From positions 1-38,296 of the forward strand of contig JANXMY010000086.1 in NCBI GenBank assembly GCA_025354405.1: DNA of 38,296 nt, given 5' to 3'. Source of the DNA: Armatimonadota bacterium. Lineage in GTDB: Bacteria > Armatimonadota > Armatimonadia > Armatimonadales > Capsulimonadaceae. The notes beneath the pieces were generated by a model that saw nothing but the letters and a program-made list of their open reading frames with translations, was not told the origin of the DNA and made no database searches. The translations under genes and the position numbers were made by a program. Shown here one piece after another: positions 1 to 38,060 of the stretch (positions are counted from its first letter, which is position 1; every line of letters begins with the position of its first letter).

Positions 1-90
1 CAGTGACATTGCCAGCCCCAGCAAGAACAATGCAAGGCCTAGACAACCTGCTTGAGTTTGTCGTGCTGCCCTCAACTTTTCACTATCCAT
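1..90 (-). CDS. Partial cassette ORF, putative membrane protein (N-terminus only)
   Basis: An open frame starts with ATG at position 90 and runs off the left edge of the window without a stop (30 codons). The visible residues begin MDSEKLRAARQTQAG and then become strongly hydrophobic (CLGLALFLLGLAMSL), which looks like a first membrane segment or signal anchor. It lies 41 bp beyond the attC-like site in the orientation expected for the next gene of a cassette array, so I infer it is the gene of the following cassette. No Shine-Dalgarno sequence is obvious. Function unknown. Only 90 bases are visible, so it could be a chance frame. Confidence 0.5.
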   Translation of the reverse strand, partial: MDSEKLRAARQTQAGCLGLALFLLGLAMSL

Positions 91-130
91 ATCAGGAACC
101 GTCCGCAACCATACTGCGTACGTGCGAGCA

Positions 131-230
131 ACCTAACGACACAGCTCAACCGCGACACCCGCACTGCAAAGCCTTCCAATAACGCAAAGCAAACCGGGCG
201 GGTGGCGTCGGGTGCAGCGCATTGTTAGGT
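131..230 (-). other. attC-like integron recombination site (about 100 bp)
   Basis: The site is bounded by perfect inverted 7-mers: ACCTAAC at 131-137 and GTTAGGT at 224-230. These match the attC core consensus RYYYAAC...GTTRRRY. The flanks inside the cores pair imperfectly: CACCCGC at 156-162 with GCGGGTG at 198-204, and the stretch after each core with one-base offsets, as expected for an attC hairpin with extrahelical bases. The stop codon of the adjacent minus-strand ORF (TAA, 227-225) lies inside the core, which is typical of integron cassettes. The identification rests on architecture and core motifs; no search was run. Confidence 0.75.
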
Positions 231-530
231 GGCAGGTTGGCTGACTTTATGTCTACTCCAAAAATGATGGCACACGGCAACTATTCCAACTATGCCGAAA
301 CCCCAATAATAAGGATTTCTGAAGTTGCTTGGATAAGGGTAAAACGACTGCGCCGCCTCGATTGCAAAACCCAAACCTGCATAAAGGAACTCCCATGTAC
401 CACTTGCTTGTCGCACGAGAGTTCGTTTCTCGTCGGGAAGCCGGCAAAACCATATCTTTCCAAATGCCCACAGACAGAACAGACTTCCGAGGCCAAACAC
501 AATAACTTCTATTTCATTGCCTTTTGTCAT
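225..530 (-). CDS. Gene-cassette-borne small membrane protein, unknown function
   Basis: A 101-residue protein with three hydrophobic stretches: about residues 7-28 (EIEVIVFGLGSLFCLWAFGK), 45-62 (TWEFLYAGLGFAIEAAQS) and 73-91 (YYWGFGIVGIVAVCHHFW). It is probably a three-helix inner-membrane protein. I do not recognise a family. Its stop codon TAA is embedded in the first core of the attC-like site, and its start lies about 50 bp inside another ACCTAAC/GTTAGGT core at 578-584. Gene plus attC therefore form one cassette of about 447 bp. There is no clear ribosome-binding site, which is common for cassette genes. Expression would depend on a promoter outside the cassette or on one I cannot see. 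Confidence 0.65.
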   Translation of the reverse strand: MTKGNEIEVIVFGLGSLFCLWAFGKIWFCRLPDEKRTLVRQASGTWEFLYAGLGFAIEAAQSFYPYPSNFRNPYYWGFGIVGIVAVCHHFWSRHKVSQPAT

Positions 531-577
531 TGTTTTGCTCTATCGCAACCGCCGCAGAACGAGCCTTTGGCCCTGCG

Positions 578-584
578 ACCTAAC
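578..584 (-). other. Second integron-type core site (cassette boundary)
   Basis: ACCTAAC on the plus strand reads GTTAGGT on the minus strand, identical to the outer core of the attC-like site. It marks the upstream edge of the complete cassette. I could not find a GTTRRRY partner within about 150 bp to its right, so this is either the edge of a decayed attC, an attI-like site, or a secondary insertion point. Confidence 0.5.
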
Positions 585-587
585 AAG

Positions 588-700
588 TATTTTACCGCGT
601 TTCACCGCAGACCGTTTGCGGTATAACACACGAAATCGGCGGCAATTACCGCAAGGAAGCGGTATAACACACCACAGGCGGAGTTTTACCGCACGGAGGC
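588..700. repeat. Cluster of short direct and inverted repeats
   Basis: GCGGTATAACACAC occurs at 618-631 and again at 659-672. TTACCGCAAGGAAGC (646-660) and TTACCGCACGGAGGC (686-700) are 40 bp apart and differ at two positions. TACCGC/GCGGTA arms make small hairpins, for example 647-664. The cluster sits between the cassette boundary and the carotenoid genes. Its role is unknown; regulator binding or a decayed mobile repeat are both possible. Confidence 0.55.
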
Positions 701-954: not shown

Positions 955-2487
955 ATGCAGCAGGCTAAGATGCGGAACGTGATTATAATCGGGGCGGGAA
1001 TCGGCGGCATGGCGACGGCTATGCGGCTGCAAGCGACAGGTCAGTTTCAGGTAACAATACTCGAGAAAAACTCCACGGTCGGTGGACGGGCGAATATTCT
1101 GGAAGTGGACGGGTTTCGGTTCGACACGGGACCGTCACTGCTGCTGATGACGGATGTTTACAAAGATCTGTTTGCGGCCTGCGGGGAAGAGTTTTCCGAA
1201 TGGGTAAAGCTCATCAAAATGGAGCCGAACTACGAGGTACACTTCGGAGACGGCACTTCGATGGTCATGTCCAGCGACCTCTCGACAATGATCGGGGAGC
1301 TGGAGCGGATCGAGCCAGGCGTAACACCGGGATACTACCGCTTTCTTGAAGATGCAGGGAAGAAGTACCGGATCGGGCGCAAGCAGTTTGTCGAAAAGAA
1401 CTTCAACAAAGCTTCTGACTTCTTTACGGCGTCGAACTTGAAGCTGCTCGGCCAGCTGAATGCCCTGGATAAGCTTTATACCCACGTCTCAAAGTTTTTC
1501 AAGGACGACCGGCTGAGACAGGCCTTCTCGATGCAGTCCATGTATTTAGGCATCTCGCCCTTCGATGCCCCGGCAGTCTACACCCTCCTGCCCTACACAG
1601 AGCTTGCCGAAGACGGCCTTTATTATCCTGAAGGCGGCATTTACGCTCTGCCGACGGCAATGGCCGCGGTCGCACGGAAGATGGGAGTCGTAATTGAGAC
1701 GGATCAGAACGTTACGCAGATCATGGTTAAGGACGGCAAAGCCAGGGGCGTCTGCATCGACGGCGAGATGCTGCCGGCTGACCTTGTGATCTCGAATGTT
1801 GACCTGCCCTACACCTATACTAACTTACTGGAGAAGCGGCCTGCAAACCGAACGGAAGCGGCCTGGAAGAAGCAGCCATTTACTTCGTCAGCTTTCATGC
1901 TGTATCTCGGCACAGACAAAATCTATCCCGAGCTTGGGCACCACAACTTCTATCTGTCGGGGGACTACAAGCGCAACTTCGAGGAAATCTTCGATGCCAA
2001 AGTCCCGCCACGCGATCCATCGTTCTACATAAACGCCCCTGGCCGGACTGACCCGACCGTCGCCCCCCCGGGACATGACAACTTGTTTGTGCTGGTGCCA
2101 ATCCCGCATCTGACCGACCAGATGACCTGGGATGAGGCCCAGATCGAGAAGTTTAAAACCAAAATCTACGAAGCCCTGGAAGAGCGGGGCCTCACGGACC
2201 TGCGGAAGCACATCGTAGTCGAGCGCGTGGTCACGCCGCATGAGTGGCGCGACCTTTACAACCTCAAGTTCGGGGCAGCGTTTGGTTTGTCGCATGGGAT
2301 ACTTCAGGTCGGCTACTTCCGGCCCGGCAACAAGGCTCCCGATGTCGACGGTCTGTACTTCGTCGGAGCCAGTACCGTTCCCGGCACAGGGGTCCCACTG
2401 GTTTGCCTCGGGGCCAAGCTCGTCACCGAACGCATACTTGCGGATTTTTCTGAACTGCCGACCGCTGTTAGTCAGGAGGCCGCATAA
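955..2487 (+). CDS. crtI: Phytoene desaturase family protein
   Basis: A 510-residue FAD-dependent carotenoid desaturase that would introduce double bases into phytoene to give neurosporene, lycopene or a related product. The N-terminal dinucleotide-binding motif IGAGIGGMATA lies at residues 12-22, followed by the acidic end of the second strand (EKNSTVGGRAN). The C-terminal FAD-binding signature GLYFVGASTVPGTGVP lies near residues 466-481, as in bacterial CrtI. The length is normal (about 490-510). ATG at 955 is the longest start; ATG at 970, after AGCAGGC, is an alternative that removes only five residues. The stop overlaps the crtB start (TAATG), so the two are translationally coupled. CrtI-like desaturases, ketolases and oxygenases of this family are hard to tell apart by eye, but the pairing with crtB favours a desaturase. 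Confidence 0.9.
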   Translation: MQQAKMRNVIIIGAGIGGMATAMRLQATGQFQVTILEKNSTVGGRANILEVDGFRFDTGPSLLLMTDVYKDLFAACGEEFSEWVKLIKMEPNYEVHFGDGTSMVMSSDLSTMIGELERIEPGVTPGYYRFLEDAGKKYRIGRKQFVEKNFNKASDFFTASNLKLLGQLNALDKLYTHVSKFFKDDRLRQAFSMQSMYLGISPFDAPAVYTLLPYTELAEDGLYYPEGGIYALPTAMAAVARKMGVVIETDQNVTQIMVKDGKARGVCIDGEMLPADLVISNVDLPYTYTNLLEKRPANRTEAAWKKQPFTSSAFMLYLGTDKIYPELGHHNFYLSGDYKRNFEEIFDAKVPPRDPSFYINAPGRTDPTVAPPGHDNLFVLVPIPHLTDQMTWDEAQIEKFKTKIYEALEERGLTDLRKHIVVERVVTPHEWRDLYNLKFGAAFGLSHGILQVGYFRPGNKAPDVDGLYFVGASTVPGTGVPLVCLGAKLVTERILADFSELPTAVSQEAA

Positions 2488-3365
2488 TGCCAAGTGCTGA
2501 ACTCACCGCCGCGTACGAAGAATCGCGCCGCCTGAATGCCAAACACGGGAAGACGTACTACTTTAGTACGCTGTTCTTCCCGCCAGATATTCGGCGCAGC
2601 GTCCATGCCCTTTACGGCTTTGTCCGCTATCCCGACGAGATCGTCGATAACCCACCGCGCGGCTCGGACCCCGCCGTGTTGCTCGCTGAGTATCGACAGG
2701 CGACACTTGTTGCCCTGAACACGGGACAATCCGATCTGCCGGTGCTCTGCGCTTTCGAGGATATGGCCCGCCGCCATAATTTATCTGCCGATCTCCCTCT
2801 GGCATTTCTCGACGCAATGGCGATGGATCTGACCCGCACTCGCTACCAGACATTTGAGGACCTGAAGACCTACACCTACGGCAGTGCATCGGTCGTCGGC
2901 CTGATGCTCTGCGCCCTGCTCGGCGTCACCGATCCCGACGCTCTTGTGCGTGCCCATGACCTCGGCCTCGCGATGCAGCTCACCAACTTCTGCCGGGACA
3001 TCGGCGAGGATTGGCGTGAGCGTGGCCGGATCTATCTGCCACTGGAAGATATGGCTTGCTTCGACTACACCGAAGACGAATTGGCCTGCGGCGTCGTGAA
3101 TGACAACTTCGTCGCCTTGATGCAATTCGAGATCGCCCGGGCCCGCGAGCTGTACGCTTCTGCCGACCTAGGCATCCCCGCCATCCGGTCCGATTGCCGC
3201 CGCCCGGTGCAGCTTGCCCGCACTCTCTACGCCCGTATCTTAGATAAGATCGAAGTGGGTGGCTACGATGTTTTCCGCCGCCGCGCCCGAACATCAGGCT
3301 TTGAAAAAGCTGCCGAAGCTCTGCGTCTGCAGATTTCTGGAGAAACGGGTGGCCGCCGCCGATAA
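2487..3365 (+). CDS. crtB: Phytoene/squalene synthase family protein
   Basis: A 292-residue head-to-head prenyl synthase that condenses two geranylgeranyl-diphosphate molecules to phytoene. The two aspartate-rich metal-binding motifs are present: DEIVD at residues 50-54 (after VRYP) and DIGED near 171-175 (in FCRDIGEDWRERGRIYLP), the latter with the usual family signature. The size is that of bacterial CrtB. The ATG lies inside the stop codon of crtI, so it should be translated from the same message. With crtI it gives the core of a C40 carotenoid pathway. A C30 synthase (CrtM-like) cannot be excluded from the sequence alone. Confidence 0.9.
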   Translation: MPSAELTAAYEESRRLNAKHGKTYYFSTLFFPPDIRRSVHALYGFVRYPDEIVDNPPRGSDPAVLLAEYRQATLVALNTGQSDLPVLCAFEDMARRHNLSADLPLAFLDAMAMDLTRTRYQTFEDLKTYTYGSASVVGLMLCALLGVTDPDALVRAHDLGLAMQLTNFCRDIGEDWRERGRIYLPLEDMACFDYTEDELACGVVNDNFVALMQFEIARARELYASADLGIPAIRSDCRRPVQLARTLYARILDKIEVGGYDVFRRRARTSGFEKAAEALRLQISGETGGRRR

Positions 3366-3597: not shown

Positions 3598-4175
3598 GGT
3601 AGGGGTTTAATACCCCGAAGCTTGCTTCGCCGGGAGTTTCCATGCTACTGTGAACTATGAGTACCTATATTCACAAGAGCCATAACGTCTCGGTTCTGCT
3701 GTATCATGCGGTCTGCCCGGCCAAATACCGTCGTGTGGTTTTCGACAGCCGGGTGGACGAAGTTCTCAAAGAAGTTTGCCTAGAGATTGCCGCCCGTTAT
3801 GAGATCGATTTTCTTGAGATCGGCACCGACCGTGATCATGTGCATTTCCTGATGCATTCGGTTCCGGTTTTGAGTCCTACGCGGATTACACCGATGGTCA
3901 AGAGCATTACGTCCCGCGAGATTTTCCGCTGTGAGCCTTCGGTCAAGAAGCAGCTCTGGGGCGGATCGTTCTGGTCAAGCGGCTTTTTCATCAACACGGT
4001 AGGCCGTCATGGCAGCGAAGAAGCCATCCGCCTTTATGTTCAGGAGCAAGGCACGGACGAGGACTACAAGACTTTGCACGTGCAGCAGATGGAACTGTTC
4101 TGAACCCGATGCCGCCCGGCGCCCCCGCGTGAAGCGTGTAATACCGCGCAGCTTGCTGCGACGTGTAGTTTATTC
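3598..4175 (+). mobile_element. IS200/IS605-family insertion sequence, tnpA only
   Basis: The element carries one Y1 transposase gene and no tnpB. Each end holds a short hairpin in a conserved context. The left one is CGAAGC-TT-GCTTCG (3616-3629), preceded by TAATACCC. The right one is CGCAGC-TT-GCTGCG (4147-4160), preceded by TAATACCG. Such subterminal hairpins are the recognition elements of IS200/IS605 TnpA. TTTATTC occurs just outside the left hairpin region (3591-3597) and at the right edge (4169-4175), which suggests the cleavage or target sequence. The exact ends are therefore inferred to within about ten bases. The element lies between the two remnants of the acyltransferase gene. Confidence 0.8.
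3657..4103 (+). CDS. tnpA: IS200/IS605 family transposase TnpA (Y1 HUH)
   Basis: A 148-residue protein of the single-strand Y1 transposase family. The HUH metal-binding motif is H61-V-H63 in DRDHVHFLM. The catalytic tyrosine is probably Y127 in EEAIRLYVQEQ, on the C-terminal helix. The length is that of intact IS200 transposases (about 140-155), and the frame shows no damage, so it may be functional. It would excise and insert the element as single-stranded DNA using the subterminal hairpins. It is preceded by the left-end hairpin and flanked on both sides by fragments of the acyltransferase gene. Confidence 0.92.
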   Translation: MSTYIHKSHNVSVLLYHAVCPAKYRRVVFDSRVDEVLKEVCLEIAARYEIDFLEIGTDRDHVHFLMHSVPVLSPTRITPMVKSITSREIFRCEPSVKKQLWGGSFWSSGFFINTVGRHGSEEAIRLYVQEQGTDEDYKTLHVQQMELF

Positions 4176-11254: not shown

Positions 11255-11326
11255 TGCCGCCTACGGGATTTGAACCTGTGACACCTCAATTTTCAGTCGA
11301 GTGCTCTACCACTGAGCTAAGGCGGC
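11255..11326 (-). tRNA. tRNA-Phe (GAA)
   Basis: A cloverleaf read on the minus strand. Acceptor GCCGCCT/AGGCGGC, D-arm GCTC..GAGC, anticodon stem CTCGA/TTGAG with loop CTGAAAA (anticodon GAA), T-loop TTCAAAT, discriminator A. The T-stem ACAGG/CCCGT has one A-C mismatch in its middle pair. No CCA is encoded. It follows tRNA-Val by 58 bp and shares its promoter. Confidence 0.93.
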
Positions 11327-11384: not shown

Positions 11385-11455
11385 TGCTCCCTGACAGAAT
11401 CGAACTGCCGCTTCTTCCGTGTAAAGGAAGTTCGCTACCATTACAACAAGGGAGC
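11385..11455 (-). tRNA. tRNA-Val (TAC)
   Basis: A cloverleaf read on the minus strand. Acceptor GCTCCCT/AGGGAGC, anticodon stem CTTCC/GGAAG with loop TTTACAC (anticodon TAC), T-arm GGCAG-TTCGATT-CTGTC. The D-arm TTGT-AATGGTA-GCGA is odd because two of its four pairs are G-U and the usual G10-C25 pair is T-A. The variable loop has four bases. No CCA is encoded. It begins about 12 bases after a clear -10 box. Confidence 0.88.
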
Positions 11456-37646: not shown

Positions 37647-37672
37647 GCCCCAGAAAACAGCCTGAGAAATAA

Positions 37673-37743
37673 GCCCAAGGTGGGAATCGGACCCACGACC
37701 TCTTCTTTACCAAAGAAGTGCTCTACCACTGAGCTACTTGGGC
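37673..37743 (-). tRNA. tRNA-Thr (GGT)
   Basis: A complete cloverleaf on the minus strand. Acceptor GCCCAAG/CTTGGGC, D-arm GCTC-AGTGGTA-GAGC, anticodon stem CTTCT/AGAAG with loop TTGGTAA (anticodon GGT), T-arm GTGGG-TCCGATT-CCCAC. The discriminator is T and no CCA is encoded. The T-loop begins TCC rather than the usual TTC. A good promoter lies 29 bp upstream. Confidence 0.93.
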
Positions 37744-37834: not shown

Positions 37835-37857
37835 CGCCTTATAACTTCATCGTGTCA

Positions 37858-38005
37858 ACGCCTACGGTGCGTCGCGGTCAACGCGACGCTTAATTGGGGA
37901 AGCCGGTAAGTCCAAACCTTAAAAGTTTGGGCAACTCCGGCGCTGTCCCGCAACTGTGTTAGGTCTTTCCTCGGAGAGCCCTTCAGCCAGAATGCCAGCC
38001 GTCGG
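37858..38005 (+). ncRNA. Cobalamin riboswitch
   Basis: The aptamer shows the parts of the cobalamin (adenosylcobalamin/cobalamin) family in order. GGTGC (37866-37870) leads into a perfect stem GCGTCGCG/CGCGACGC (37869-37889). Then come TTAATTGGGGAAGCCGGT (37889-37906), a P4-type arm closing at CCGGCGCTGTCCCGCAACTGT (37937-37957, consensus CCGCAACTGT), and the B12 box AGCCAGAATGCCAGCC (37985-38000). It sits between a strong promoter and the pseudopilin gene on the same strand. It senses a cobamide and should lower expression of the following gene when the ligand is abundant. Confidence 0.9.
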
Positions 38006-38007
38006 TA

Positions 38008-38060
38008 CGAAGTGATTGGGATCACTTCGATTTCCCTGCCTGCGCGCGATCAGGCGGAAA
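38008..38060 (+). promoter_or_regulatory. Riboswitch expression platform: two hairpins, one over the ribosome-binding site
   Basis: CGAAGTGAT-tggg-ATCACTTCG (38008-38029) is a perfect 9-bp stem. Next, TTTCC..CCTG (38031-38042) can pair with CAGG.GGAAA (38051-38060), burying GGAAAG, the probable ribosome-binding site 9 bases before ATG 38071. This suggests control at translation; there is no U-run for a terminator. Confidence 0.55.

Follow-up and report, generated by a model that had tools for sequence, protein, structure and literature searches.

An attI-like site between crtI and a cassette array in an Armatimonadota bacterium: a possible integron with several attI and one integrase

The window, by which we mean the whole stretch of 38,296 nt that was analysed, is contig C168 of a 3.6-Mb Armatimonadota genome (G000) assembled in 233 contigs. 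Near its left end lies a 100-bp element that begins with ACCTAAC at 131–137 and ends with GTTAGGT at 224–230, the two 7-bp ends being perfectly complementary, and a further GTTAGGT-type core is located at 578–584. The open reading frame between them (530..225, minus strand) encodes a predicted membrane protein of 101 aa that found no match in Pfam or NCBIfam, and its stop codon TAA at 227–225 is situated within the core of the element. Beyond the element, the 5′ part of a second frame (90..1, minus strand, 30 hydrophobic residues) is cut off by the contig end. To the right and divergent from these frames, a crtI-type phytoene desaturase gene (955..2487, plus strand; product matching TIGR02734 with 510 bits, exceeding the cut-off) takes the position held by intI in a classical integron; a crtB-type phytoene synthase gene (SQS_PSY; 2487..3365, plus strand) follows as context. 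An earlier note, made from the sequence alone, had described the left end as integron-type gene cassettes without an integrase next to a carotenoid cluster, with the window starting inside a cassette array. The element with its perfect ends and internal palindrome, the stop codon in the core, the start of a second membrane-protein frame beyond the element, the carotenoid neighbourhood and the start within an array, which runs off the left end of C168, were all borne out. Elsewhere in the window we noted an IS200-type Y1 transposase frame (3657–4103) amid a run of carotenoid and glycosyltransferase genes, tRNA genes at 11255–11326, 11385–11455 and 37672–37743, and a cobalamin riboswitch at the right end (37848–38017, plus strand).

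The 100-bp element (131..230, with cores at 224–230 and 131–137; its top strand is the minus strand of the window) recurs in its own genome. BLAST with positions 1–900 found it on C164 (E 2.4e-30, the best match), C109 (3.1e-25), C218 (1.2e-24), C185, C92 and C70, and a covariance model identified 15 strong sites (65–104 bits) plus 5 weak ones and added C6; the model was built here from 14 sites including that of the window, so that the score of the window site is not an independent one. With these 14 sites aligned blind to structure, 92.4% of the stem cells pair compared with 30–46% when slid, and 21 cells carry double-sided, compensatory changes, the structure under test being the consensus of that same alignment. 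Folding of the window site, the one site folded, gave −24.5 kcal/mol (z −3.9) for the bottom strand (window plus) and −19.6 kcal/mol (z −1.6) for the top strand. The bottom strand thus folds better, as expected of attC, so that the minus strand is the one on which the cassettes are read, leftward and away from crtI. The search for further attC and the folding of the bottom strand had both been proposed in the earlier note, and both came out in its favour. Integron arrays are recognised by complementary RYYYAAC/GTTRRRY cores around an imperfect palindrome and by attC repeated at cassette spacing with small frames between them, and we found both; the window holds one attC before the contig ends, the other contigs of the genome one to five. 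A search of the window against Rfam gave no attC or attI match. The element at 131–230 is a genuine attC, far beyond chance. The first cassettes of the window had no BLAST homology to the examined cassette arrays of G000, G001 and G004.

The core at 578–584 had been taken for another cassette boundary. It is present, but as an attC core it was rejected: neither a partner core nor a palindrome lies to the right of it, and the block that it shares with other arrays is unlike attC. An attI-like block of ~67 bp heads the window array as well as three arrays on C109, C185 and C70, none of which adjoins an intI. In the window it occupies 578..651 on the minus strand and consists of the core GTTAGGT (578..584), where attI meets the first cassette and the array starts, and the conserved upstream block with the left arm GCGGTAAAATACTT, common to the array starts on the other three contigs. 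The pattern GTAAAATACTTGTTRGRY matched without mismatch in the window and on C109 and with one mismatch on C185, each time correctly oriented and immediately upstream of an array. Matches with three mismatches were at chance level (8 in all against 7 in the control) and were not counted, with the exception of the weaker C70 site, which was retained on the strength of its longer alignment (z 5.3–6.3 against the other three over 70 bp). Aligned over 70 bp, the four sites scored z 5.2–9.9 above shuffles. Their common form is roughly GCGGTAA..G.CGC...GTGTTAYACCGCA..GCGGTAAAATACTTG followed by TTRGGY. Additional GCGGTAWAAYA boxes in both orientations, putative integrase-binding repeats, lie upstream of the core (598..692, minus strand). 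Such boxes were ~5 times denser within 260 bp upstream of attI sites than in the background, a figure limited by the fact that one such box had contributed to the choice of the pattern-found sites. The core at 578–584 is the junction of an attI, at which the array starts, and belongs to a multi-copy attI family. A scan of positions 1–1000 for sigma-70 promoters gave nothing above chance, and Pc was not located.

The outer flanks of the four attI are unrelated to each other. In the window the flank is crtI; from reading translations and sequence we take the others to be a SIMPL-type gene (C109), a HAD gene (C185) and a tmRNA gene (C70). A complete integron has an attI at the head of its array, which is present in the window, and an intI adjacent to it, which is absent from this locus: no intI was found between the attI (578–651) and crtI (955), nor at the array loci of G000. 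The description as lacking an integrase was accordingly right for the locus and wrong for the genome, because contig C84 opens with the last 48 codons of an intI, with 45 of 48 residues identical to the IntI of the sister species. The intI-linked attI of G000 would fall beyond the edge of C84, and the intI gene of G000 is visible as this 3′ end at the contig edge only.

A same-genus genome, G001, contains one full intI (contig C52, 457 bits against a cut-off of 265) with a cassette junction 5′ of it. Its contig C295 is the orthologue of the crtI locus in the window (84% over 1359 bp in the crtI flanks) and has, as in the window, a junction between crtI and the cassettes. This orphan attI and the intI-linked attI of G001 are identical at 146 of 175 positions (83%, E 6e-50; genome-wide E 8e-48), and their homology stops exactly at GTTAG; only these two such sites were found in G001. 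Because of this 83% identity, the site beside crtI is, by homology, a true attI remote from its integrase. IntI could instead have inserted cassettes at non-specific secondary (attG) sites, with the shared flank being coincidental. Those sites likewise receive cassettes outside the integrase-linked attI. They have little sequence in common, whereas the sites here share 67–175 bp upstream of the junction, mutually or with a true attI, at genome-wide E-values of 8e-7 (window and C109) and 8e-48 (G001), which far exceeds what a secondary site needs. The use of secondary sites by IntI is known (PMC8876359; PMC10127599), and we regard this explanation as extremely improbable here.

An artefact of assembly or binning, with one integron split over several contigs or foreign contigs mixed in, has to be weighed as well. 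The assembly is MAG-like with its 233 contigs, and the arrays are at contig ends, where repeats break assemblies. Against this, a single 38-kb contig links crtI to the attI of the window, G001 has the same junction and also orthologs of the sequences flanking the C70, C185 and C109 sites, and a more distant genome shows the same pattern on long contigs (see below); we judge an artefact to be very improbable.

On the cassette side of the crtI loci, attC are the only similarity between G000 and G001, so that the two species have different cassettes at one orthologous attI. The attI either predates the split of the two species or reached the same locus twice. In a 70-bp comparison, the paralogous pair within G001 was identical at 67 of 75 positions and the orthologous crtI pair at 44 of 75; the attI sequences hence follow the genome and not the locus. 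Co-evolution of attI sites with their cognate integrases has been proposed, on the ground that non-cognate pairs recombine poorly (PMC8946536). Likeness of attI within a genome would fit such co-evolution; it would also fit gene conversion or independent arrival. Of the remaining attI loci of G000, two had no attI by motif in G001, and at the third the G001 contig stops too soon. The interval between the HAD gene and uvrC differs between the genomes (L019:1-2235 and L020:1088-1330 of G000, compared with L264 of G001): in G000, attI and cassettes lie beside the HAD gene on C185, and an attC on C92 adjoins the same downstream, uvrC-like gene, while the stretch of this interval examined in G001 had no attC match or attI-like motif. 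At the tmRNA gene, the attI of G000 is positioned just 3′ of the gene (L021:2760-3417); at the corresponding locus of G001 (L263) we observed a degraded attC and an extra cassette, then an orthologous copy (83%) of the same cassette gene.

Exactly one intI above the TIGR02249 cut-off was detected in each of G001, G022 and G036. G022 belongs to the Abditibacteriaceae, presumably placed by GTDB in the same phylum, Armatimonadota, and combines its one intI with six attI that share an architecture and with 91 attC matches spread over many contigs. Its attI core pattern had 22 matches, against none for the reversed control. The complete attI architecture is present in only six of them; about nine come after a distinct 27-bp repeat and were not counted as attI. 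Ten of the 22 have a same-strand attC within 3 kb, where position would lead one to expect ~1% (binomial P about 2e-14; the matches are not fully independent). The five orphan attI have the same base as the intI-linked attI at 59–75 of 108 positions outside the search pattern (z 7–10); the shared block of ~140 bp has its limits at about −140 and +20, the flanks are unrelated, and all five are followed by a same-strand attC 504–2417 bp downstream. In G036, four of four attI-pattern matches are followed by attC, two of which were found only afterwards. Several attI homologous to the intI-linked one, each heading an array, together with one intI, were thus found in G022 and also in G001, where the sites number two. 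A Xanthomonas genome served for contrast, and it has a single copy of its intI-upstream region.

G022 also contains about 30 copies of the near-identical 27-bp string CACAGCGTCACGGTGGAAGTGGATTAG (L252:3427-19688, L250, L102, L249, L255, L257-L259, L103 and L111). The string ends many different short, mostly membrane-type frames with the C-terminus (A)QHSVTVEVD*, and several copies are followed 22 bp later by an attI-like half-site and the core GTTGGGC. These frames could form a family of small proteins that have their tail in common, or the string could be another type of cassette end.

The earlier note also considered a CALIN, that is, at least two attC without a nearby intI. The locus has no intI, yet it is more than a plain CALIN, since an attI heads the array. 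All such arrays could nevertheless be ordinary CALINs, once complete integrons that lost intI and kept attI as a fossil no longer receiving cassettes, in line with the proposal that CALINs are degraded integrons (PMC9024848). In G022, a degraded intI end (residues about 256–317; L105:12530-12702) abuts the attI block at C8 where intI should start, and further intI fragments lie in the flanks of an array on C17 (L108). The relic at C8 means that at least one platform was once a complete integron, and some orphan attI may be relics, as the decayed intI at C8 and the fragments at L108 suggest. No intI relic was found at the four attI sites of G000 or at the crtI site of G001; the attI blocks retain architecture and spacing although their flanks are unrelated, and the cassettes at the crtI attI differ between the species. 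Nor would simple decay after speciation lead one to expect paralogous attI to be more alike than the orthologous pair. As a general explanation, fossil attI therefore seem unlikely to us, at a plausibility well above that of an artefact or of secondary sites.

We favour, with a probability of roughly 0.7, the reading that positions 1–651 are the attI-proximal end of an array in a multi-attI integron, in which one IntI serves scattered attI. This IntI, encoded by a linked gene elsewhere in the chromosome, would act on all attI in trans and recombine folded bottom strands of attC into several double-stranded attI across the genome, the site at 578–651 between crtI and the array being one of them. 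Each attI would head its own array, new cassettes entering at its junction, the GCGGTAWAAYA boxes would serve as integrase-binding repeats, and the matching of attI within a genome would mean that the attI have co-evolved with this enzyme. Copying of an attI region or of a whole integron probably gave rise to the dispersed attI, with the extra intI lost in at least one case. For this species, the multi-attI reading would imply that a single intact intI is accompanied by an attI containing ...TAAAATACTTGTTRG..., and that crtI, tmRNA, the interval between HAD and uvrC, and SIMPL each have an orphan attI. We are inclined, with less assurance, to go further and suppose a polycentric integron, in which one integrase feeds many attI in trans, the platforms stay matched while the cassettes turn over, and capture is chromosome-wide.

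An integron typically has a single attI near its integrase; beyond class 1, descriptions of attI are poor, and the standard program does not look for them (PMC9024848). The system described here resembles the sedentary chromosomal integrons of the Vibrio and Xanthomonas type in its IntI family (TIGR02249, above cut-off in the relatives), in attC that are homogeneous within a genome, in the attI left arm with repeats and in small uncharacterised cassette proteins; it differs in that attI and arrays occur at several loci away from intI. With CALINs it shares attC arrays without a neighbouring intI, but here a recognisable attI stands at the head, common to other arrays and related to an intI-linked attI, a feature that the class definition of CALINs leaves out of account. 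As in delta-attI-type gene cassettes (PMC12901181), attI sequence lies beside cassettes outside the integrase-linked position. There, a truncated attI replaces attC in a mobile integron array (PMC12901181), whereas here whole attI head independent chromosomal arrays. A search of the literature, chiefly open-access and excluding preprints, found no description of several attI with one intI or of orphan attI. The parts are known; several attI with one intI appear to be what is new.

The other half of the integron record consists of CALINs, which are interpreted as products of decay. Should orphan attI head such arrays, part of the CALINs may be live platforms served in trans. If true, the expression of cassettes could be coupled to differing chromosomal contexts, and attI-like blocks at array heads would provide a testable explanation of CALINs.
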